Shown piece by piece: positions 1 to 10,846 of a DNA stretch of 64,000 nt; position 1 is the stretch's first letter, and every line of letters begins with the position of its first letter. A program made the translations under genes and the position numbers. The stretch spans positions 1,054,001 through 1,118,000 of the forward strand of contig NZ_LIQG01000026.1 of NCBI RefSeq assembly GCF_001418015.1. Reading direction: 5' to 3'. Under the pieces are notes generated by a model. It ran no database searches and was not told the origin of the DNA. It saw nothing but the letters and a program-made list of their open reading frames with translations. The DNA comes from Lacinutrix mariniflava (GTDB lineage: Bacteria; Bacteroidota; Bacteroidia; Flavobacteriales; Flavobacteriaceae).

Positions 1-1
1 G

Positions 2-3000
2 ATGACTTGGGAGGGTTCTATGGTGCTGTATGGTATTTTTGGTATAGATGAATCGTATGAGAAATCTGTCGAAAGTTGGGGAGATCTTATTCATCCAGAT
101 GAAAGAGAGGAGATGCTAGGTTACTTGGCAAATGGAGTAAAGAGTAAGTTTAGATTCAATAAGGCATATAGAGTTTTAAAGTTTAATACCAAAGAAGAAA
201 TTTGGGTTCATGGTGTAGGAGAGTTGATTTATGATGCCGAAGGAAATGCAGTAAAACTAATTGGTACCATGCAGGATGTTACCAAGAGAAAGCAATCCGA
301 AATCAAGCTACAACAAAGTGAGAAATCGCTGTTAATTGCTCAAGAAATCGCAAAAATAGGGAGTTTTAATTTGAGTGTAAAAGAGTTGTTAGGGGAAACC
401 TCGGTTACTTTTAATCAAATTATTGGTGTAGATAGTGATACCGATGTAGATTTTGATCTTTGGAAAACAATAGTGCATCCTGATGATAGAGCTCTCATTA
501 AAAAAAATGTATTCGCAAGTCTTGAGCTTAATCAAAAATTTGATTTAGAATATAGAATTATCTCCAAAATAGATAAGCAGTTAAAATGGATTCATGGTTT
601 GGGTGAAGTGGTTTATGTAGATGGAATTGCTGTAAGTTTCTTCGGTACTATTCAGGATATTACCGAACGTAAAAGTATAGCGTTAGATTTAAAAGTTGCT
701 AACGAATTTTCTTCAGGCCTTTTGCAGTCAATGAGCGAAGGATTAATTGCTATAAATTTAGAATCAGAAATAATTAGTGTCAATCCGTCGTTTTGTAAAA
801 TGACAGGTTTTACAGAGGAAGAATTAATAGGAGTTAAGCGTCCATATCCATTTTTGCCACCCGAATTAAAAGAAGCAAACAGTAGGCGATATAAACTGTT
901 AATAGAAGGGAAGAATGAAAAGAGTTACGAAAACACTTATATGCGTAAAAACGGGATTCGTTTCCCGGTACATGTTTTAATTTCAAGTACTTATGATGAG
1001 AATGGTGTAAAAACGGCAAACTTTGCTACAGTGCAAGATATTACAGAGCGTAAAAAAGCAGAAATAGACTTAAATCTAGCAAAAGAATTTAATGATAAGC
1101 TTGTTATGTCTATGCAAGAAGGCTTGATTATTCTCGATACGTCTGGTAGAATTGTAAAAGTAAACGATTCGTTATGTGCGATTTTAGGGTATTCAGAAGA
1201 AGAACTTATCGGTCTTAATATACCGTATCCATTTGCAAAAGAGGAAGATTACGAGGCAATGTCAAAAATCGATGCAAAAATAGCCAAAGGAGAGGCGCCG
1301 TCATTCCAGTTTGAGTTTATTAGAAAAAATGGAGAAACATTTCTTGCTTCGTTTTTAACAGGAAGTATTAAGGATGATAAAGGAGAGATTATAGCTTTAT
1401 TTGGTACAATGAAAGATGTTTCTGAAGAAGAGCGGGCTAAAACTGTTTTGCAGAATAATGCGAAAAAATCATTAGAGAGAAAAAATGTTATTATCGAATT
1501 GGCAGGTTTAGTTGGGACAGATTATAAAGAAGCCTTAAACGAAATTACGGCACTTTCGGCAAAAACTTTAAATGTTGAAAGAGGAAGTATTTTAAAGTTT
1601 AACAAAGATAATACAGAAATGTTTTGTGAAAAACTATACACGAAAAACAGTGATGATTATCAAAGTGGGCAGGTGTATTCTAAAATAAATAATGACCAGT
1701 TTTTTGATGCTTTAAGTAATAATAAAATAGTAGCAGCCTCAGATGCTGTCAATCATGAGCTTTCTAAAGGTTTTGTAGAAGATTATCTTAAGCCATTAAA
1801 TATAAAATCTAAATTAAGTATTCCAATTCAAGGTATAGATGAGGTGTATGGAATTTTATGTTTTGAAGAAGTTGGTGCTATACATGTTTGGACTACAGAT
1901 GAAGAGGAGTTTGCAACTTCGATTGCTAATTTGGTGTCCTTAATGATTCAGAGTTCAGAAAGAAAATTAGCAGAAAAAGCGTCTATTGTTGCAAACAATC
2001 AACTTACGCTAGCTAATAGTGAGTTAAATACCTTACGAAAACAATTAGAGCAAGAAAATGTATATCTAAGAAACGAGTTAGATTTAGTTTTTAATTATGA
2101 AGAGATGGTGTATGGTAGTGTGGAATTTAGTAATGTGCTAACAGAAGTAGAAAAAGTGGCGCCAACAACGGCAACTGTTTTATTATTAGGTGAATCTGGA
2201 ACAGGAAAAGAATTGTTAGCAAGAGCAGTGCATAATACTAGTTTGCGTAATAAGAAACCACTAATAAAGGTTAATTGCTCTGCAATACCTCGAGAATTAA
2301 TTGAGAGTGAATTGTTTGGTCATAAAAAAGGATCTTTTACTGGTGCTGTTAATGATAAAATTGGAAAATTTGAATTGGCAGATGGCGGTACTTTGTTTTT
2401 AGACGAAATAGGTGAGTTGCCTTTAGATATGCAGCCTAAAATATTAAGGTTTTTACAAGAAGGTGAAATAGAAGTGGTAGGTGGTACGCAGTTAAAAAAG
2501 TTAGATGTTAGAGTAATTGCAGCAACAAACAGGAACTTAAAGGAGGAGATTGAGAAAAAACAATTTCGCGAAGATTTGTATTTTAGACTTAACGTGTTTC
2601 CAATAGTTGTACCTCCGCTAAGAGAAAGAAAAGACGATATCCCATTGTTGGTCGAGCATTTTGTAAACAAATTTAATAAAGCTTATGGGAAAACGCTTAA
2701 GTATATTAGTGACGATACAATGAATAAATTAAAAGGTTATAATTGGCCTGGAAATATTAGAGAGTTGGAGAACTTAGTAGAGCGTGCTTCTATTTTGTCT
2801 AATAAGGACATGTTGGTCATTCCTGGGTTTGAATCTTCTGCGCAAAAAGCAACGCCTATTAATAAAAAAGACTTATCGCTAGACGCTGTTCAGCGAAATC
2901 ATATAATTCAAGTTTTAGAGCAATGTAATTGGAAGGTTAGTGGAAGTAAAGGAGCAGCTGTAGTGTTAGATTTAAAACCTAGCACATTAAGAGATAGAAT

Positions 3001-3028
3001 GACTAAACTCGGTATTTCAAAAACGTAA
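2..3028 (+). CDS. PAS(x4)-GAF sigma-54-dependent transcriptional activator, 5' partial
   Basis: This is a bacterial enhancer-binding protein that should activate RNA polymerase carrying sigma-54 in response to signals sensed by PAS and GAF domains. Four PAS units end at about residues 95, 220, 350 and 475 (GTMQDVTKRK, GTIQDITERK, FATVQDITERK, FGTMKDVSEE). A GAF domain follows (about 500-655), then a short coiled coil (660-700). The AAA+ domain has Walker A GESGTGKE near 730, the sigma-54 contact loop GSFTGA near 778 (Ser in place of the usual Ala) and Walker B LFLDEIGE near 798. A Fis-type helix-turn-helix lies at about 960-1005. The first PAS lacks its first strands, so the gene begins upstream of the window; the ATG at base 2 is probably internal. 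There is no receiver domain, so control is likely by ligand or redox sensing. A terminator at 3121 follows it, and two copies of a palindromic box pair lie downstream. Confidence 0.9.
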   Translation: MTWEGSMVLYGIFGIDESYEKSVESWGDLIHPDEREEMLGYLANGVKSKFRFNKAYRVLKFNTKEEIWVHGVGELIYDAEGNAVKLIGTMQDVTKRKQSEIKLQQSEKSLLIAQEIAKIGSFNLSVKELLGETSVTFNQIIGVDSDTDVDFDLWKTIVHPDDRALIKKNVFASLELNQKFDLEYRIISKIDKQLKWIHGLGEVVYVDGIAVSFFGTIQDITERKSIALDLKVANEFSSGLLQSMSEGLIAINLESEIISVNPSFCKMTGFTEEELIGVKRPYPFLPPELKEANSRRYKLLIEGKNEKSYENTYMRKNGIRFPVHVLISSTYDENGVKTANFATVQDITERKKAEIDLNLAKEFNDKLVMSMQEGLIILDTSGRIVKVNDSLCAILGYSEEELIGLNIPYPFAKEEDYEAMSKIDAKIAKGEAPSFQFEFIRKNGETFLASFLTGSIKDDKGEIIALFGTMKDVSEEERAKTVLQNNAKKSLERKNVIIELAGLVGTDYKEALNEITALSAKTLNVERGSILKFNKDNTEMFCEKLYTKNSDDYQSGQVYSKINNDQFFDALSNNKIVAASDAVNHELSKGFVEDYLKPLNIKSKLSIPIQGIDEVYGILCFEEVGAIHVWTTDEEEFATSIANLVSLMIQSSERKLAEKASIVANNQLTLANSELNTLRKQLEQENVYLRNELDLVFNYEEMVYGSVEFSNVLTEVEKVAPTTATVLLLGESGTGKELLARAVHNTSLRNKKPLIKVNCSAIPRELIESELFGHKKGSFTGAVNDKIGKFELADGGTLFLDEIGELPLDMQPKILRFLQEGEIEVVGGTQLKKLDVRVIAATNRNLKEEIEKKQFREDLYFRLNVFPIVVPPLRERKDDIPLLVEHFVNKFNKAYGKTLKYISDDTMNKLKGYNWPGNIRELENLVERASILSNKDMLVIPGFESSAQKATPINKKDLSLDAVQRNHIIQVLEQCNWKVSGSKGAAVVLDLKPSTLRDRMTKLGISKT

Positions 3029-3032
3029 TAAA

Positions 3033-3086
3033 TTAACGGAATACCGTTAATTTGTGTATTTCGTCTTTAAAATACGCGGTATATCG
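3033..3086. promoter_or_regulatory. Paired palindromic boxes, candidate enhancer (UAS) of the sigma-54 activator, copy A
   Basis: Box 1 at 3033-3050 is a perfect inverted repeat TTAACGG-AATA-CCGTTAA. Box 2 at 3075-3086 is CGCGGTATATCG, a degenerate form of the same core (CGG-N-ATA-Y-CG). The two cores start 40 bp apart, close to four helical turns. The same two boxes recur at 4997-5050. The site is directly behind the activator gene and about 100-135 bp upstream of a -24/-12 promoter, which is where enhancer-binding proteins usually bind. Binding by the neighbouring activator is inferred. Confidence 0.65.
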
Positions 3087-3120
3087 ATGTTTTGAAATCG
3101 TGTGATAATTTAAAATTAAA

Positions 3121-3159
3121 TCATAACAAGCTAATTATTAGTTTGTTATGATTTTTTTT
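3121..3159 (+). terminator. Intrinsic terminator of the sigma-54 activator gene
   Basis: The stem pairs TCATAACAAGCTA with TAGTTTGTTATGA (one G-T wobble) around a 5-nt loop and is followed by eight T. It lies between the enhancer-like boxes and the -24/-12 promoter, so it would end the activator transcript and shield the downstream promoter from read-through. Confidence 0.75.
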
Positions 3160-3173
3160 GCTTTAAAAAGAAG

Positions 3174-3190
3174 TTTGGCATTTGTATTGA
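3174..3190 (+). promoter_or_regulatory. Candidate sigma-54 (-24/-12) promoter for the secreted-protein gene
   Basis: TTTGGCATTTGTATTGA has the -24 GG (3177-3178) exactly ten bases from the -12 GA (3189-3190). The consensus is TGGCAC-N5-TTGC, so the -12 C is replaced by A. The copy upstream of 5174 shares TTTGGCAT-N-T-N-TATTG. The predicted start of transcription is near 3202, leaving about 92 nt of leader before the ATG at 3294. Confidence 0.6.
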
Positions 3191-3293
3191 AATATCTTTT
3201 TTAGAAAATTAATGCTAAACATGAAATATCAAGCTGTAATGTTGAAGTCATTAATAATAGTCCAAAATCGCAAACAATCTTAACCTAACAATT

Positions 3294-4757
3294 ATGAAAA
3301 ACTTAAAATCACATTTAAAAACGCTGTTATTAGCAGTTGTTATTAGTTTTAATTTCTGTGCCTTTTCTCAAGTAGGGATTGGTACGGCAACTCCAGAGCC
3401 TTCTTCAATTCTAGATATTAGTTCAACCGATAAAGGAATGTTGGCACCTAGAATGACTACCGTTCAAAGAATTGCAATATTAAGTCCAGCAGATGGTTTG
3501 TTGGTATATGATATAACAGAAAAGGGCTTTTATTTTTATGATTCAAGTAGTTGGGTGAGAATGCCTGTAGAAAAACGAGACAATCATAAATTAATAAAAT
3601 CCGAAGCCGATTTAAGCGATGAGCTTACTGCAGGAGGTGGGAGTAAGTATTTGTTAGACACAAATACATTATATGAAATTAATGGTACAATCCTTTTAGC
3701 ACAACCTATTGATTTAAATAATGCTTATATAATAGGACTAGACACTAATGAAGATGTTTTAGTAAAATCTGGAGGAACAATGTTTGTTGGGGCTTCGGGA
3801 GGTAGTATAAAGGGAGTGACGCTTACTGCTCCTGGAGGAACTATTTTTAATATGGCAGGAAATGCTGCGCAAAACTTAGTATTTAGAGACTCTGTTGTCG
3901 CAAATTCTCTTTCGGTTGGTATGATTGATGGGTTTGGATTGGTTTTTTTAAGTGTTGTTCAGTTTTCAGGAAATACAACAGGAATAACGTATAACAATGT
4001 TACAGATTTACTACTGAGTAATATGGGATGGTTTTCTAATAATTTAGGAACCTATGAAACTTTTACAGGTGCTTTTAGTATTCTTGAAAAGCAAGGAGGG
4101 TTTTCTGAAGTAAACGGGTCTGCTATTGGTGTAGATGTTAGTAGTAATCCTGTAGTTAGTAAAGGCGTATTAACTGGAGCCAGTTTTAGTGGGAGTAGTA
4201 CTCAGTATATTAAAAAATATACTAGTGGTTCGTTTGCTGGATATAATTTTAGTAATGCTTGGACGGTAGATTGTCCTGGAATACCAGTAGAGTCAGACGA
4301 GGTTGCAACGGGCCATATTTATTATGACGGAACCATTACAACGGGTTTTGTACAATCTGCTTTGTCAGGAAGTCCATTTAATCTTTCTGGAAATTTAGGA
4401 TCAAATTCTACTACTGCTGTAAATTTACTTAGGGTATCATCACCACAAGATAATAGAATAACATATTTAGGTAAGAAAACGAGAACGTTTCAAGTAAGTG
4501 CTTCATTATCTGTTAGAGGGAATGTTAATTTAGGTGACTATTATGCGTTTTTTATACGAAAAAATGGAACGACTACATTAACTGAAACAAATACATTAAT
4601 GAGGGTTAATCTCTTAGCGGATATCACTAGTAATTCAATTTCTGGAACCGTGGAGTTAGAGCCAAATGACTATGTTGAAATTTGGGGACAAAAACTAGTA
4701 GGAGTTTTACCTCTTTCTTCAATAACTGTTTTCTCTTTAAATCTTAATATAAAATAA
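3294..4757 (+). CDS. Secreted protein of unknown function with Bacteroidota VGIGT-type N-terminus
   Basis: This 487-residue protein has a Sec signal peptide (hydrophobic stretch up to CAFSQ, about residue 26). It is followed by the segment common to many secreted Bacteroidota proteins: VGIGTATPEPSSILDISS, then KGMLAPRMT and DGLLVYD. The middle is rich in Gly, Ser, Thr and Asn with short beta-strand-like blocks, as in beta-helical or adhesin-like proteins. No cysteine cluster, catalytic motif or clear type IX C-terminal sorting domain is seen. It stands alone between the activator gene and the sensory operon, and both it and the operon are preceded by the same boxes and promoter type. This suggests it is a main output of the sigma-54 activator. 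The function is unknown; a surface or matrix role is a guess. Confidence 0.8.
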   Translation: MKNLKSHLKTLLLAVVISFNFCAFSQVGIGTATPEPSSILDISSTDKGMLAPRMTTVQRIAILSPADGLLVYDITEKGFYFYDSSSWVRMPVEKRDNHKLIKSEADLSDELTAGGGSKYLLDTNTLYEINGTILLAQPIDLNNAYIIGLDTNEDVLVKSGGTMFVGASGGSIKGVTLTAPGGTIFNMAGNAAQNLVFRDSVVANSLSVGMIDGFGLVFLSVVQFSGNTTGITYNNVTDLLLSNMGWFSNNLGTYETFTGAFSILEKQGGFSEVNGSAIGVDVSSNPVVSKGVLTGASFSGSSTQYIKKYTSGSFAGYNFSNAWTVDCPGIPVESDEVATGHIYYDGTITTGFVQSALSGSPFNLSGNLGSNSTTAVNLLRVSSPQDNRITYLGKKTRTFQVSASLSVRGNVNLGDYYAFFIRKNGTTTLTETNTLMRVNLLADITSNSISGTVELEPNDYVEIWGQKLVGVLPLSSITVFSLNLNIK

Positions 4758-4995
4758 CTTATTAATAATTAGCTAGTTGTGGTTTTTGTTTAGTGATATT
4801 TAGGAGTTGTTTTTAGTTAATAGTATTAGCCAATGCATCGTCTTGTTTTGTTTAGGTGTTGCAATGCATTCTAATTAATTCAATTGTCTTAAATCATTTT
4901 AATCTCTATAAGTGGTTGGCTTCATTAATAGATATCAATTTTAATTAAAGTTAAAATGTGGTATTAAACTAAGGTTTTTAAGAGTTCTGTAAAAT
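4758..4995. other. Non-coding stretch downstream of the secreted-protein gene
   Basis: No open frame of note and no clear intrinsic terminator was found here. It is A+T-rich and leads into the second copy of the enhancer-like boxes. Together with the boxes and promoter that follow, the gene-free interval extends to 5173. Confidence 0.6.
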
Positions 4996-4996
4996 A

Positions 4997-5050
4997 AACG
5001 GAATACCGTTAATCTAAATGCTTGACATAATTTTTTTTCGCGGTATATCG
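4997..5050. promoter_or_regulatory. Paired palindromic boxes, candidate enhancer (UAS), copy B
   Basis: AACGGAATACCGTTAAT at 4997-5013 and CGCGGTATATCG at 5039-5050 repeat the boxes at 3035 and 3075 base for base. The cores start 42 bp apart (40 in copy A). Box 2 starts its CGG 101 bp before the -24 GG at 5142; the figure in copy A is 100 bp. The sequence between the boxes is not conserved, so this is not a simple DNA duplication. Confidence 0.65.
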
Positions 5051-5138
5051 CACTGTATGCTTTTGCTGTAATTTAATGTAATTATTGTGAAGCCTCTTAA
5101 ATACAGGGTTTAAAATATATTTCCCTTTAAAAACACAT

Positions 5139-5155
5139 TTTGGCATCTCTATTGG
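5139..5155 (+). promoter_or_regulatory. Candidate sigma-54 (-24/-12) promoter for the sensory operon
   Basis: TTTGGCATCTCTATTGG (5139-5155) has GG at 5142-5143 and GG at 5154-5155 with the ten-base gap of sigma-54 promoters. The last base departs from the usual GC. Transcription would begin near 5166, only 8-14 nt before the possible start codons at 5174 or 5180. Confidence 0.55.
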
Positions 5156-5173
5156 TATTAATTTTTAAAAGTG

Positions 5174-5602
5174 ATGATAATGAAAAACGAAATACGAATA
5201 GACAATATTAAATTTTGGGTAGACCAAAATATTATTTATTGTAAGTTTTATAATGATTTTGATAAAAATTATTTTCACGATGGTTTTGAAGATATTTTTT
5301 ACGAAGCTATTTCAATACTATCTAACGGAACTTATTTGCCTATGATATTTGATTTAACAGAGGTTAAAAGTTTGGTTTTGGTGAAACTATTCAAGCTGTT
5401 GTCATGCAGTTCTAAACTTGAAAGTGTTGTCTTGTCAAAAGTATTTTTAGTAGAAAATCAAAAACAAAAAATTATTCTTTCTTTTTATGTGATGTTTAGT
5501 GATGCTAATGTGCCTAATTTAATTTTTATGGAATCGGACTTAGCAATAGAATATAGTAGTAATAATTATGCGCTTTTTAATTCTGTAAGTTATGACAGCT
5601 AA
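5174..5602 (+). CDS. Small DUF7793-like protein, first of a paralogous pair
   Basis: This is a cytosolic protein of about 142 residues with no signal peptide. It opens with KFWVDQNIIYCKFYND and has a central LPMIFDLTEVKS block. The same layout (KFW..nGIlfCqF, then lcnGkpmPFLID) occurs in the next gene, so the two are diverged paralogs. The pattern resembles the DUF7793 family of small STAS/SpoIIAA-like proteins common in Flavobacteriia. That assignment is from memory of the family and is not certain. Start choice is open: GTG 5171, ATG 5174 or ATG 5180 are in frame. If the sigma-54 promoter just upstream is real, the leader is extremely short. It is the first gene of an operon ending in a histidine kinase and a response regulator. 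Confidence 0.7.
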   Translation: MIMKNEIRIDNIKFWVDQNIIYCKFYNDFDKNYFHDGFEDIFYEAISILSNGTYLPMIFDLTEVKSLVLVKLFKLLSCSSKLESVVLSKVFLVENQKQKIILSFYVMFSDANVPNLIFMESDLAIEYSSNNYALFNSVSYDS

Positions 5603-6017
5603 CATGGAAGATGCGATAAATATAGGGTATTCAAAATTCTGGACAGATAATGGTATTCTTTTCTGTCAGTTTAGAAATGAAAATGCGAATTTTAAATTTG
5701 AGTCCAGCACTGTAGATTTATTTATAAAAGTAATAGATAAGTTATGTAATGGTAAGCCTATGCCTTTTTTAATTGATTCGAGAGATTCTAAAGGGACTTT
5801 TACTCGTGAGTCATCAAATTTATTGGCCACATCACCAATATTGTCTAAGCTAAGAATTTCTGAAGCGTTTGTTCTCAATTCTATCGGGATAAAGCTAGTG
5901 GTAGCATCTTATAAAAGAATTTACGAGCCGCTTACTCCTTTTTGTGTGTTTGGTGATTTAGAATCGGCAAAAGAGTATTGTATGGAAACTAAAAACAAAT
6001 TTTATGGAAGCAATTAA
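5592..6017 (+). CDS. Small DUF7793-like protein, second of a paralogous pair
   Basis: This 141-residue cytosolic protein shares with the preceding product an aromatic N-terminal block (SKFWTDNGILFCQF) and a central block (NGKPMPFLIDSRDSKGTF). It ends in a PLTPFCVFGDLESAKEYC segment. The family resemblance is to DUF7793-type proteins, whose fold is thought to be STAS-like; no biochemical role is known to me. The ORF start overlaps the previous stop by 11 nt. An alternative ATG at 5604 would remove the overlap. Its 3' end overlaps the histidine kinase start by 14 nt, so translation of the kinase is probably coupled to it. A regulatory partner role for the kinase is an inference from position only. 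Confidence 0.7.
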   Translation: MTANMEDAINIGYSKFWTDNGILFCQFRNENANFKFESSTVDLFIKVIDKLCNGKPMPFLIDSRDSKGTFTRESSNLLATSPILSKLRISEAFVLNSIGIKLVVASYKRIYEPLTPFCVFGDLESAKEYCMETKNKFYGSN

Positions 6018-7848
6018 GTATAATTCATTAGTTAGCTTTAACGAGACTATGCGCGATCACGTTCTTGATAGTGCTATCGTTTCGATAACAGATTATTTGG
6101 GTAGAATAGAATATGCAAATGATAATTTTTGTAAAATTTTAGAATGCGATGCTAGTAGGTTGGTTGGTGAAACTCACGAATTACTAAAATCTCCTCTTTA
6201 TACTGGTAAAGTGTATAAAAATTTATGGAGAACAATTAGAATGGGAAATAAGTGGAATGGTATTTTATCTGACTTTTCTAGTACTGGTATAGAATTTTGG
6301 TTGGATACTACAATTATTCCAATAAGAAACGAAGGAGAGAATACGCTTAAATATCTATCTATTTATAAAGATGTTACTAAGTATTATAAAAACAACAATC
6401 AGCTTTTAAAAACAGCATTAGTTAATGAAAAATTTTTAGAGAGAATGCCTTTGCAGGTGTTTACTATTTCTAAGCATGGTAAAATTTTAAATGCGAATAA
6501 GAGTTTTTGTAATAAAGGAATAGGTGAATTAATTGGTACTTATATATACGATTATTTTATTCCTACAACCTTCGAATCTTTTAAAGAGAATATAGATAAG
6601 GTTTATGTAGATAAATTAACGCATCAATTTGAGTTGCATGATTTTGATGCCGTGGGAAGAAAAATGTACTATTCGGTAGTAGTTTCTCCTAACCCTAGAA
6701 AGATGGGAGAACCTGTCTCGGCTACAATAGCGCTTTACGAGATAACCAAATTTAAAGGTGTTAGTGATGTTCTTAGAGATAGTGAGGCTAAATTTAGGTC
6801 AATTTATAGATCTATTAATGTTGGAATTATTGTTGTAGCAGATGAAAAAGGGAATATTACGGCATGGAATAAAGGAGCTGAGGAAGCTTTTGGTTATACC
6901 GAAAAAGAAACAATAGGTAGGTCTCTAACCGTTTTAATGTCTAAAAAATATAAAAAAGGAAATATTAGCGAGTTGTTGAGGGCTGTTAGTAAAATTAAAA
7001 AGGAAGAGAATGTAGATATTATAGAAATGTGTTGTTTGCGCAAAAACGGAGAAGTGTTTCCTGTGGAATTCGCATTAAGTAGTGGTAGCGTAGATAATCA
7101 TAATTACTATTGTGCCATGATGTTTGATATAACAGAACGTAAAGCCTTGCAGAATAGGCTTGAACAAAAAACAAAAGATCTTGAGTTGTTTTTGTATCGC
7201 TCAGCTCATGATCTTAAAGCTCCTTTTTCTTCTGCGGAAGGGCTTGTTAATCTGCTTAAAGAAGAGATAAACAGTGATAAAGTAGCGTCTTTAACAGGTA
7301 TGTTGGATACTGTTATAAAAAACGGAAAAGAACTGTCGGAAAATCTTTCTCAAGCGTCAAATATTTCAATTAATAAAAGTGAGTTTAAAAAAATTGATTT
7401 TTCGAGTGCTATAGATAATATATTGATTTCGCTGCGTGATGAAAATAAACTGGATAATATAAAATTGAATGTTAATGTAGTAGACACTTTTGGTTTTCGT
7501 TCAAATCAAGAAATGATAAACTATATTCTTCAAAATTTAATTATTAATGCTATAAAATACTCTGTAAAGCCAGATGTAAATTGTAGGCCGTATGTAAATA
7601 TAGCGGTAAAAACTTCTCAAGAAAAGGTGGTGTTGACTATAGAAGATAATGGCGTTGGAATTTGTAAAAAGAAGATTAATAAAATATTTGACTTGTACTA
7701 CAGAGCTAATAAGTACGATGTGCCAGGTCATGGCTTAGGGCTTTATATCGTTAGAAATATAGTAGATAATTTACATGGAGAGATAACAGTTGAAAGTTAT
7801 ATTAATAGTGGTTCTATTTTTAAAATTGTTTTACCGAATAATGTCTAA
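6004..7848 (+). CDS. Multi-PAS sensor histidine kinase
   Basis: This 614-residue soluble histidine kinase has no transmembrane segments. It has three PAS-type units: residues about 15-130 (ending YLSIYKDVTKYYK), 140-250 and 260-380 (ending AMMFDITERKAL). Next comes the dimerisation/phosphoacceptor helix with FLYRSAHDLKAPF, where H402 is the expected phosphorylation site. The catalytic domain shows the N box (NLIINAIKYS, about 512), G1 (IEDNGVGI) and G2 (GHGLGLYIV, about 576). This is the HisKA plus HATPase arrangement. It sits 14 nt downstream of the receiver gene's 5' neighbour by only one short spacer: the response regulator begins 14 nt after its stop, and the kinase start overlaps the DUF7793-like gene. 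The cognate regulator is therefore likely the 7863 product. Confidence 0.9.
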   Translation: MEAIKYNSLVSFNETMRDHVLDSAIVSITDYLGRIEYANDNFCKILECDASRLVGETHELLKSPLYTGKVYKNLWRTIRMGNKWNGILSDFSSTGIEFWLDTTIIPIRNEGENTLKYLSIYKDVTKYYKNNNQLLKTALVNEKFLERMPLQVFTISKHGKILNANKSFCNKGIGELIGTYIYDYFIPTTFESFKENIDKVYVDKLTHQFELHDFDAVGRKMYYSVVVSPNPRKMGEPVSATIALYEITKFKGVSDVLRDSEAKFRSIYRSINVGIIVVADEKGNITAWNKGAEEAFGYTEKETIGRSLTVLMSKKYKKGNISELLRAVSKIKKEENVDIIEMCCLRKNGEVFPVEFALSSGSVDNHNYYCAMMFDITERKALQNRLEQKTKDLELFLYRSAHDLKAPFSSAEGLVNLLKEEINSDKVASLTGMLDTVIKNGKELSENLSQASNISINKSEFKKIDFSSAIDNILISLRDENKLDNIKLNVNVVDTFGFRSNQEMINYILQNLIINAIKYSVKPDVNCRPYVNIAVKTSQEKVVLTIEDNGVGICKKKINKIFDLYYRANKYDVPGHGLGLYIVRNIVDNLHGEITVESYINSGSIFKIVLPNNV

Positions 7849-7862
7849 TTAAAATTTGAAAG

Positions 7863-8336
7863 ATGAATGTAAACATAATGATAATTGACGACAGTAAGAT
7901 AGACTTGTTTGTAAGTCAGAAGATTATAGAAAAGGTGAACTCGAACTGTAAAATTAAACCTTTTTCCAGTGCAAATGCTGCTCTCGATTTTTTAAAAAAA
8001 TTAGAAGATGAAAGTCGTCAAGCAATGTTTATTCCCGATGTTATTTTTTTAGACATAAACATGCCTGAAATGAATGGGTTCGAATTCTTGAAAGAGTTTA
8101 GTAAACTCAAGAATGTAGGTAAGAAGAATATTAAAATATATATGCTATCATCATCTACTAACTCTCAGGATATTAAAAAAGCAAAGAGTAGTAGCAATTG
8201 TGTAGGCTTTGTTAATAAGCCACTTACAACGGCTAGTCTAGATGAAATTATAGTTAGATATAGGCCGTATTTAGAAGAGTTTGATTATCAAGCAGAGGAT
8301 GTTAATTTAAAAAGAAAAGTAAAGCTAGTGGGATAG
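7863..8336 (+). CDS. Single-domain response regulator (CheY-like)
   Basis: This 157-residue protein is one receiver domain with no output domain. It has the acidic pair IIDDSK (D9, D10), the phosphoacceptor in FLDINMPEMNGFEF (D64), the Ser/Thr switch LSSSTNS (about 94-98) and the conserved lysine in VNKPL (K119). A charged tail of about 25 residues follows. Lacking a DNA-binding domain, it should act by protein contact or as a phosphorelay intermediate. It is the last gene of the 5174-8336 operon and the natural partner of the kinase. How it connects to the sigma-54 activator, which has no receiver domain, is unknown. Confidence 0.9.
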   Translation: MNVNIMIIDDSKIDLFVSQKIIEKVNSNCKIKPFSSANAALDFLKKLEDESRQAMFIPDVIFLDINMPEMNGFEFLKEFSKLKNVGKKNIKIYMLSSSTNSQDIKKAKSSSNCVGFVNKPLTTASLDEIIVRYRPYLEEFDYQAEDVNLKRKVKLVG

Positions 8337-9530: not shown

Positions 9531-10846
9531 TGATAAAAAAACTTGTATTAGTTTTTATTGCATTGTTTGCAATTCAAAGTTACGCTCAGGAAACAACAGC
9601 TTCACCATATTCTTTCTATGGTATTGGAACTTTAAAATTTAAAGGTTCAGTGGAGAATGTTAGTATGGGTGGATTGAGCGTCTATAAAGATAGTATTCAT
9701 GTAAACTTTAGAAATCCTGCAACTTATGGAGGAAATAATATTGAGACTTTTAATAATGAAAGTCGTCCTGTAAAGTTTACTGTTGGAGGAAGTCACACGT
9801 CTACTACGTTGAAAACAAATGATAGTGAAGATAAAGTTAGGTCTTCTACTTTCGATTATTTAGCATTGTCAATACCAGTTGGGAAACTTGGTTTTGGTTT
9901 TGGTTTATTACCGTATACGGCAGTGGGCTATAGACTAGAGACAACTAATGGTGTGGGAGATGTAGATACTCGTTTTAGAGGAGAAGGTGGTTTAAATAAA
10001 GCTTTTTTATCTTTTGGTTATCAATTAACAGATGCTTTAAGTGTTGGTGTTGATGCTAATTATAACTTCGGAAACATTCAAAATAATACTATTCAGTTTA
10101 GTTATAATGACGAAGGTGAATTATTACAAACACAGTCTCGCGAAATTAACAGGTCAGATTTAAGCGGACTTAATGTTAACTTCGGGTTGCATTATCAAAA
10201 AATGATTACAGATAAGTTAGAATTACAATCTGCTTTTACATTCTCACCATCAAGTGATATTAGTTCTACTAACGAACGCTCTTTTTCTAATATAACAATA
10301 AACGGTATTACTGGAGAAGAATTTGCAATAAAAACTATCGAGGCAGATTTAGCTGCTAGCGGTTTAGATGAGACAAGTTTAAAATTACCTTCTAGATTAT
10401 CTATTGGAGCAGGAATAGGAGCACCTAGAAAGTGGTTTACAGGAATTGAATATACAACACAAAATACTAGTGAATTTTCTAATGCACTATATGCAAATAC
10501 AGAAACTACTTTTGTAGATGCTTCTACTTTATCTTTAGGTGGATTTTATATTCCAAAGTATAATTCGTTTTCAAGCTACTGGCAACGTGTTGTTTATAGA
10601 GCAGGTTTGCGCTTTGAAAACACAGGTTTGCAGGTGCAAAGCGAAACGATTAAAGAGTTTGGCATATCTTTTGGAGTAGGTCTACCAGTTGGAACAACAA
10701 AAAACCCATTCTCGAATGCCAATTTAGGTATTGAAATAGGAAAACGCGGTACAACAGACGCAGACTTAATTCAAGAGAATTTTCTAAAGTTTAATTTAAG
10801 TTTGTCGTTAAACGATAGATGGTTCCAAAAAAGAAAATTTAACTAA
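9530..10846 (+). CDS. Outer-membrane beta-barrel protein
   Basis: This 438-residue protein has a signal peptide ending near SYAQ (residue 20) and then alternating hydrophobic/polar strands typical of a porin-like barrel. Markers are SPYSFYGIGTLKF, the MGGLSV block and a C-terminal KFNLSLSLNDRWFQ strand. The start overlaps the coaX stop by one base, so the two are probably co-transcribed. The family resembles the flavobacterial proteins annotated only as putative outer-membrane proteins near coaX and lptC. Substrate and function are unknown. Confidence 0.85.
   Translation: MIKKLVLVFIALFAIQSYAQETTASPYSFYGIGTLKFKGSVENVSMGGLSVYKDSIHVNFRNPATYGGNNIETFNNESRPVKFTVGGSHTSTTLKTNDSEDKVRSSTFDYLALSIPVGKLGFGFGLLPYTAVGYRLETTNGVGDVDTRFRGEGGLNKAFLSFGYQLTDALSVGVDANYNFGNIQNNTIQFSYNDEGELLQTQSREINRSDLSGLNVNFGLHYQKMITDKLELQSAFTFSPSSDISSTNERSFSNITINGITGEEFAIKTIEADLAASGLDETSLKLPSRLSIGAGIGAPRKWFTGIEYTTQNTSEFSNALYANTETTFVDASTLSLGGFYIPKYNSFSSYWQRVVYRAGLRFENTGLQVQSETIKEFGISFGVGLPVGTTKNPFSNANLGIEIGKRGTTDADLIQENFLKFNLSLSLNDRWFQKRKFN

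Follow-up and report, generated by a model that had tools for sequence, protein, structure and literature searches.

A two-box enhancer and sigma-54 promoter module predicted to link a large multi-PAS activator to secreted-protein and STAS-kinase-regulator genes in Lacinutrix mariniflava

Which genes does a large sigma-54 activator of the marine flavobacterium Lacinutrix mariniflava control, and through which DNA sites? The question is raised by a 64,000-nucleotide stretch of contig NZ_LIQG01000026.1 (assembly GCF_001418015.1, positions 1,054,001 to 1,118,000, forward strand; hereafter the window), in which the gene of a multi-PAS activator is followed by two similar arrangements of palindromes and a -24/-12 promoter. 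Sigma-54 enhancer modules with integration host factor (IHF) are a known kind in other bacteria; in the NifA/NorR/FhlA layout, palindromic enhancers lie ~100–150 bp upstream and an IHF site precedes the -24/-12 promoter. A sequence-only reading of the window had proposed that the activator binds the boxes and, with sigma-54, drives a secreted protein at 3294 and an operon at 5174–8336. Comparative sequence analysis supports this proposal: it reveals the module, its fixed geometry and its coupling to the activator and to both sets of target genes, and control of both sets by the activator through the module with sigma-54 is very probably the best explanation of the whole.

Window positions 3035–3189 and 4997–5154 are two copies of one module, each a pair of palindromes followed by a -24/-12 promoter. 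The elements, with the gene that precedes them, are:

1–3028, + strand: activator gene, 3' part; the first ATG (L044:7383) is 2618 bp upstream of the window
3035–3048, no strand: module 1 enhancer box 1, palindrome AACGGAATACCGTT
3075–3086, no strand: module 1 enhancer box 2, CGCGGTATATCG, 9/10 to CGGWATWCCG
3118–3159, + strand: terminator-like hairpin, 17-bp stem followed by a T run, surrounding the module 1 third element
3124–3147, + strand: module 1 third element, near-palindromic and IHF-like, TAACAAGCTAATTATTAGTTTGTT, starting 53 bp before the -24 GG
3174–3189, + strand: module 1 -24/-12 promoter, TTTGGCATTTGTATTG, predicted transcript start near 3202
4997–5010, no strand: module 2 enhancer box 1, AACGGAATACCGTT
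5039–5050, no strand: module 2 enhancer box 2, CGCGGTATATCG
5089–5112, + strand: module 2 third element, a weak match (score 9.4 vs 17.0 in module 1)
5139–5154, + strand: module 2 -24/-12 promoter, TTTGGCATCTCTATTG, predicted transcript start near 5167

Direct reading and pattern search recovered every repeat that the sequence-only reading had listed, namely the 17-mer AACGGAATACCGTTAAT at 3035 and 4997, the 12-mer CGCGGTATATCG at 3075 and 5039, and the promoter motif TTTGGCAT-N3-TATTG at 3174 and 5139, together with the spacings it had given (box starts 40 and 42 bp apart; box 2 core to -24 GG 100 and 101 bp). Both box positions have the palindrome core CGGWATWCCG, both promoters have GG-N10-G spacing, and in module 1 the 10-bp core of box 1 starts 8 bp 3' of the activator stop codon. 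The sequence CGGNATANCG occurs five times in the window against 0.23 expected, a number reached in none of 100 shuffles, and four of the five occurrences are the module boxes.

The activator gene had been placed at 2–3028, which is the wrong extent: from its first ATG the protein has 1881 amino acids (aa; 1885 for the stop-to-stop frame), with an N-terminal receiver, GAF, PAS repeats, a second GAF, a sigma-54 AAA+ domain and a Fis-type helix-turn-helix (HTH) in that order. The AAA+ domain scores 235.9 bits to PF00158 and its loop reads GSFTGA, one residue off the usual GAFTGA-type form; the HTH_8 match (20.6 bits) is slightly under the Pfam cut-off of 22, with a recognition helix KPSTLRDRM. 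Its NifA score (TIGR01817, 378.5) is below the cut-off of 528.85, and no activator equivalog exceeded its curated cut-off among the best 25 of 50 models. PF00158 matches 13 proteins in the genome, four of them strongly, and the other three strong ones have a different HTH or none at the C-terminal end. A single copy of rpoN is present (E 4.3e-118); its absence had been named as grounds for abandoning the proposal.

Conservation behind the activator was assessed in orthologous loci. A search with the AAA-HTH part found orthologs in 8 of 13 genus genomes at at least 82% identity (one over 203 residues only) and in 32 of 397 genomes of a family sample at at least 63%; three are shared between the sets, giving 37 genomes, and the stretch 3' of the activator stop was read in all 37 loci. 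The best-fitting module of two boxes and a promoter starts 0–11 bp after the activator stop in 36 of the 37; such a fit always returns a placement, hence the score is decisive, and in 33 of these 36 loci the summed box scores are higher than in any of 1800 shuffles. Across 43 modules (36 first and 7 second copies) the boxes are 38–42 bp apart (36–45 searched), and box 2 lies 99–103 bp from the GG in 31 of 36 first and all seven second copies (80–125 searched). Distances in the remaining five first copies are 89, 105, 112, 113 and 113 bp, four of which are about one helical turn off. TGGCAY-N5-TTG is present in both window copies, in all but three of the 36 first copies and in four of the seven second copies. 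The two window copies retain boxes, spacing and promoter although the intervening sequence has diverged, and the module persists across the orthologs, in agreement with the earlier view that boxes and spacing are under selection.

Individual loci show variation on this arrangement. One genome (G129, L133) has a tandem duplicate of the whole unit of activator, boxes, DUF7793 gene, kinase and regulator; its second activator copy has its own module, counted here among the second copies, and the -12 element of its promoters is shifted. In another (G003, L109/L203) two separate frames make up the activator ortholog, reflecting either a disrupted gene or a sequencing error, with an intact module behind it. 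A third (G007, L103) has a truncated SEC gene (the secreted-protein gene described below) and a weakened module 1 (boxes 7/10, GGTA in the -24 element) that profile R1 still matches at 1.4e-10; both boxes of its module 2 remain at 9/10.

Presence of the module follows presence of the activator. A profile of 26 rows with the genus left out matches both window modules (E 1.8e-21 and 3e-12), compared with a best match of E 0.052 on ten shuffled windows, and this result is not circular. Most ortholog modules went into the training of profile R1, whose non-circular results are its negatives, the distant copies described below and the untrained first copies (L103, L120, L125, L133, L136 and L137). 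Within the genus, the module (E <= 0.001) is found in all eight genomes with the ortholog and in none of the five without it. Within the family, at E < 1e-9, it is found in 32 of 32 genomes with an ortholog of at least 63% identity and in 1 of 365 others, which is G257, where it lies beside a 53% homolog. Weaker R1 matches are frequent (175 of 397 family genomes at E <= 0.01); some are antisense to a module or beside 46–51% homologs, and many are confined to the second, AT-rich half of the profile, as expected by chance. The 55–57% activators that were read (L138–L141) have no module. At class level, 2 of 395 genomes are over threshold, the L. mariniflava genome itself and G784. The latter, from another family of the class, has a GC-rich genome that encodes an activator homolog of 59% identity, its recognition helix reading KPTTLRDRM. 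Immediately at the stop codon of this gene (L304:2491–2574) begins a pair of exact CGGWATWCCG palindromes 33 bp apart, and the contig ends 41 bp 3' of box 2, before any promoter.

In the 3.97-Mb L. mariniflava genome, the 10-mer core alone is not enriched (30 matches vs 33 for a reversed control pattern). TGGCAY-N4/5-TTG lies within 400 bp of only four of these 30, namely the window boxes; the remaining 26 exact 10-mers all lack a promoter match within that distance, and 23 of them are inside frames of at least 100 codons. The signal is therefore the arrangement and not the 10-mer. Boxes scattered at random without promoters had been named as grounds for abandoning the proposal; the 10-mer is in fact spread as expected by chance, and the full module is not. 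A large regulon in this genome is rejected, since at E <= 0.01 R1 matches nothing beyond the two modules except one antisense overlap with module 1, and with only two copies the circuit appears small. Boxes before the activator and kinase genes, as for self-regulation, were not found in L044, where four one-mismatch matches compare with 1.84 expected and four were reached in 29 of 200 shuffles; R1 gave no match there better than E 0.14.

The genes behind the two modules, which would be the activator's targets, are:

3294–4757, + strand: target 1 (SEC), 487 aa, with a signal-peptide-like N-terminal helix, predicted beta-helix and TNF/C1q-like C-terminal head
5174–5602, + strand: operon gene 1, DUF7793 relative (25.5 bits, slightly under the Pfam cut-off of 26, PF25056)
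5592–6017, + strand: operon gene 2, DUF7793 protein (35.5 bits, over the cut-off of 26), predicted STAS/SpoIIAA-like fold
6004–7848, + strand: operon gene 3, PAS histidine kinase
7863–8336, + strand: operon gene 4, single-domain response regulator

At the thresholds applied, neither Pfam nor NCBIfam gave a match to SEC. Its predicted fold is confident, a tailspike-like beta-helix with a TNF/C1q-like head comparable to phage tailspikes and exosporium proteins, a likeness at domain level only given low TM-scores to whole chains. For the protein at 5592, the STAS fold of the model is clear (predicted local distance difference test score 90.8): the best matches are SpoIIAA-like 2q3l (E 2.7e-4) and STAS 4xs5 (E 5.8e-4), with which it shares only 9–10% identity.

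These target families recur behind the activator. At least one DUF7793 homolog is found in 33 of the 37 orthologous loci, and SEC relatives in 17, four of them partial (~2–9 kb read downstream). Where the order is fullest, the activator and module are followed by one or two DUF7793 genes, a PAS kinase, a single-domain regulator, X and SEC; X is a protein of ~650 aa with a type IX secretion system sorting tail that is absent from the window. Modules also occur away from the activator, at loci that were not in the training set. G244, which has no module beside its activator, has one elsewhere (L174) before a STAS-kinase-regulator-SEC run. G179 has two further modules far from the activator, one (L172) preceding X and a full-length SEC relative (73%), the other (L173) preceding a 243-aa protein that resembles SEC over ~80 N-terminal residues only. 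In Lacinutrix himadriensis (L193) a module precedes X and SEC, with no activator within the fetched 21 kb. Distant modules before relatives of the same targets support the activator-target reading. When SEC relatives were sought in named genomes and 80 of 129 kept, the module lay upstream of 15 of 19 relatives at at least 58% identity and of none of 61 others; eight of the 15 loci are from genomes already counted and seven are new.

L194 and L195 have the order activator-module-STAS-X-SEC-module-STAS-STAS, followed in L194 by the kinase and regulator, which suggests an origin of the two-module arrangement; the window copies probably arose by duplication. X-SEC-like secreted pairs also occur in Flavobacterium (L211–L231; X ~29%, SEC ~50% identity) without a sigma-54 module, as do SEC-like genes in Chryseobacterium, so the pair was probably recruited.

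The activator and its palindromes vary together. The recognition helix is KPSTLRD or KPSTLTD in all 28 orthologs compared (of 37), with KPSTLTD in L123, and activator homologs with a different recognition helix have different palindromes 3' of the gene, as read by eye. A second activator group (46–50% identity) has mostly P/S-TTL-x-S helices and CGAWATWTCG palindromes, also read by eye. In this group (L178–L190) the first 300 bp after the stop codon have, in most loci, two or three ACGAWATWTCGT-like palindromes ~22 bp apart, followed by a promoter and the same third element as in the modules, usually at -33; most of these promoters precede a gene that we take from its first residues to be OsmC-like. 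Homologs of 50–51% identity in L176 and L177 have CGATATATCG-like boxes and the third element at -54, before a run of co-oriented open reading frames.

Between box 2 and the -24 element lies a third element, clear in copy 1 and weak in copy 2, that was missing from the sequence-only reading. An unguided motif search before the -24 element gave AAaanCTgATWATCAG, starting 50–54 bp before the GG in 37 of 43 modules. Its score was 461 vs 262–292 in six shuffled sets, with a positional standard deviation of 3.3 vs 15–17, these shuffled controls having had fewer restarts; the positions given for the elements of individual modules come from a matrix that was itself built from these 43 modules. The IHF consensus is WATCARNNNNTTR, and the motif can be read as two IHF-type half sites in facing orientation. 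At least 8/9 informative bases of the consensus are matched in 30 of 43 modules vs 4.8% of refitted shuffles, sites being placed with a matrix trained on these modules; in the window, copy 1 matches 8/9 and copy 2 only 6/9. The distant modules of G179 and G244 have the element at -54 or -55, weakly in G244.

Promoters behind 46–51% homologs served as a hold-out, in which the element was found in 13 of 15 at p <= 0.007. This set is biased, 13 of its 16 loci having been fetched via a weak adjacent match of R1, which contains the element, and its promoters were chosen by eye (L191, where there is no promoter, was left out). Of the three loci fetched without an R1 match, L188 and L189 have the element and L191 is the one that shows no promoter. 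A second set of 20 loci was chosen by homology rank alone with an automatic promoter rule. Ten have a TGGCAY-N7-G site within 400 bp and the other ten no promoter match; the element is present in seven of the ten promoters (p <= 0.004), at -33 in six and at -55 in one, and the other three are without it. Behind other activators the element is mostly at -33, otherwise at -44, -54 or -55 from the GG. Being common to activators with different boxes, it is likelier to be the site of a common factor than of the activator. Third elements at -54 were not seen at many other promoters of the L. mariniflava genome, where the next R2 match after the two modules is E 0.0065. Two HU/IHF-family proteins are encoded there (L272, L273), one scoring best to IHF models and both under all cut-offs. 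We tentatively propose, at somewhat less than even odds, that TAA-N4-CTGATWATCAG-N4-TTA is bound by a homodimer of an IHF-like HU-family protein, for which the IHF half site is doubled, and that this protein serves enhancer-dependent promoters in Bacteroidota as a shared architectural factor. The general layout for this class of activator in Flavobacteriaceae, and perhaps in more of the phylum, might then be gene, enhancer straight after the stop codon, element (at -33, -44 or -54 from the GG, one or two helical turns apart between groups) and -24/-12 promoter.

The activator is preceded by the genes of a 134-aa single-domain response regulator and of a kinase of 1777 aa that combines a VUPS sensor domain and many PAS domains with HisKA and HATPase. 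In the mechanism that we propose, this multi-PAS kinase would probably feed the 1881-aa receiver-PAS-GAF-AAA+ activator with a signal. An activator oligomer would bind the two CGGWATWCCG palindromes, which are ~four helical turns apart, and sigma-54 RNA polymerase would wait at the -24/-12 promoter ~100 bp downstream of the boxes. An HU/IHF-family protein would probably bend the DNA at the third element so that the activator contacts and remodels the polymerase. One module would drive the secreted beta-helix/TNF-like protein, with a presumed function at the cell surface, and the other the STAS-STAS-kinase-regulator operon.

Several points weigh against activator control through the module. L123 (G244) has no module beside the activator, and the box sums of L103, L137 and L131 are within the shuffle range. 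Four SEC relatives of 58–61% identity (L205–L208) have no module, and L224 has only a weak partial match (E 0.004). At matches weaker than E 1e-9 further genomes appear, among them G243, where the contig starts with the end of an ortholog, and G029 and G089, where the match is beside 51% and 50% homologs. Recovery by R1 of the modules on which it was trained is circular, and the genus-left-out profile retains L111, a locus with two modules from a strain named Lacinutrix that is classed in another genus. The correlation of helix and box rests on few independent lineages, and the third element of module 2 is weak.

The paired palindromes could instead be sites of another regulator, such as a repressor, with the activator acting from elsewhere. 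Palindromes bind many regulators, and CGGNATANCG elsewhere in the genome is at chance level; nevertheless, module presence tracks the activator ortholog genome by genome, also in another family (G784), and the palindrome changes behind homologs with a different recognition helix. Activator sites usually lie ~100–140 bp before the -24 element, which is where these boxes are, and we regard another regulator as improbable. A position 0–11 bp after the activator stop would also suit a terminator, with the promoter behind it by coincidence. The module 1 third element is itself a strong hairpin with a T run (3118–3154; the fold of 3112–3166 gives z -7.1), which the sequence-only reading had not listed, and the hairpin at 3118–3159 may mark the end of the activator transcript. 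That the palindromes or the third element are in general terminators of the activator gene is nevertheless highly unlikely, because the module also occurs at distant loci and as second copies that are not beside the activator. As a general terminator the third element is rejected: a fold of -6 kcal/mol or lower is seen in only 10 of 61 elements, against 54 of 61 with 7/9 or more bases of an IHF-type half site.

Recent duplication without selection on the boxes could likewise make the two window copies alike, and the arrangement in L194 and L195 suggests that duplication probably did produce them. As the full account it has very little probability, being contradicted by diverged inter-element sequence with retained boxes, spacing and promoter, and by module conservation and box scores across orthologs. 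Control of both target sets by the activator, through paired boxes and sigma-54, fits these observations best.

The proposed circuit resembles NifA/NorR/FhlA-type systems in its GAF/PAS-sensing AAA+ activator, its upstream palindromes and an IHF-type site between enhancer and -24/-12 promoter. It differs in box sequence, in the receiver and many PAS domains of the activator, in its targets, in the enhancer at the activator stop codon and in the near-palindromic third element. For the sigma-54 regulon of Flavobacterium psychrophilum, from the same family, a -24/-12 motif like that found here was derived from mapped 5'-ends, one promoter was probed by mutation, and envelope and gliding genes belong to it. 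Its targets include GroES/GroEL and the gliding operon, unlike the present ones; the available part of that report names three PF00158 proteins, without enhancer boxes or activator assignment (PMC9723704). In Desulfovibrio vulgaris, the orp operons depend on sigma-54 plus IHF, with IHF required, according to the accessible portion of the account (PMC3897727); phylum, activator and targets are other than here, and the sigma-54 setting of IHF is alike. A survey states, in the part available, that activator specificity is not available for every one of the organisms studied (PMC12316311).

Among the matches listed in a search of open-licence literature (titles and abstract openings), there was no description of the activator, boxes, third element or circuit. 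New here are the 1881-aa activator with an N-terminal receiver, the STAS-like, kinase, regulator and secreted targets, and the third element at fixed distance. With them, sigma-54 control in Flavobacteriaceae gains a predicted activator with its enhancer, promoter and targets; for this family the literature, in the parts consulted, names activators and assigns no enhancers. Joint variation of activators and palindromes between groups opens DNA recognition to swap tests, and the common third element offers a direct test for an IHF-like factor in Bacteroidota. Judging from the targets, the circuit would be one in which a sensor controls a secreted fibre-like protein and a STAS-kinase-regulator pathway. 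Elsewhere in the window, TGGCATATCTTTTG at 10660–10673, which probably reflects coding conservation and not a promoter, lies within a coding gene and recurs at a similar place in L103, L104, L105, L110 and L111.

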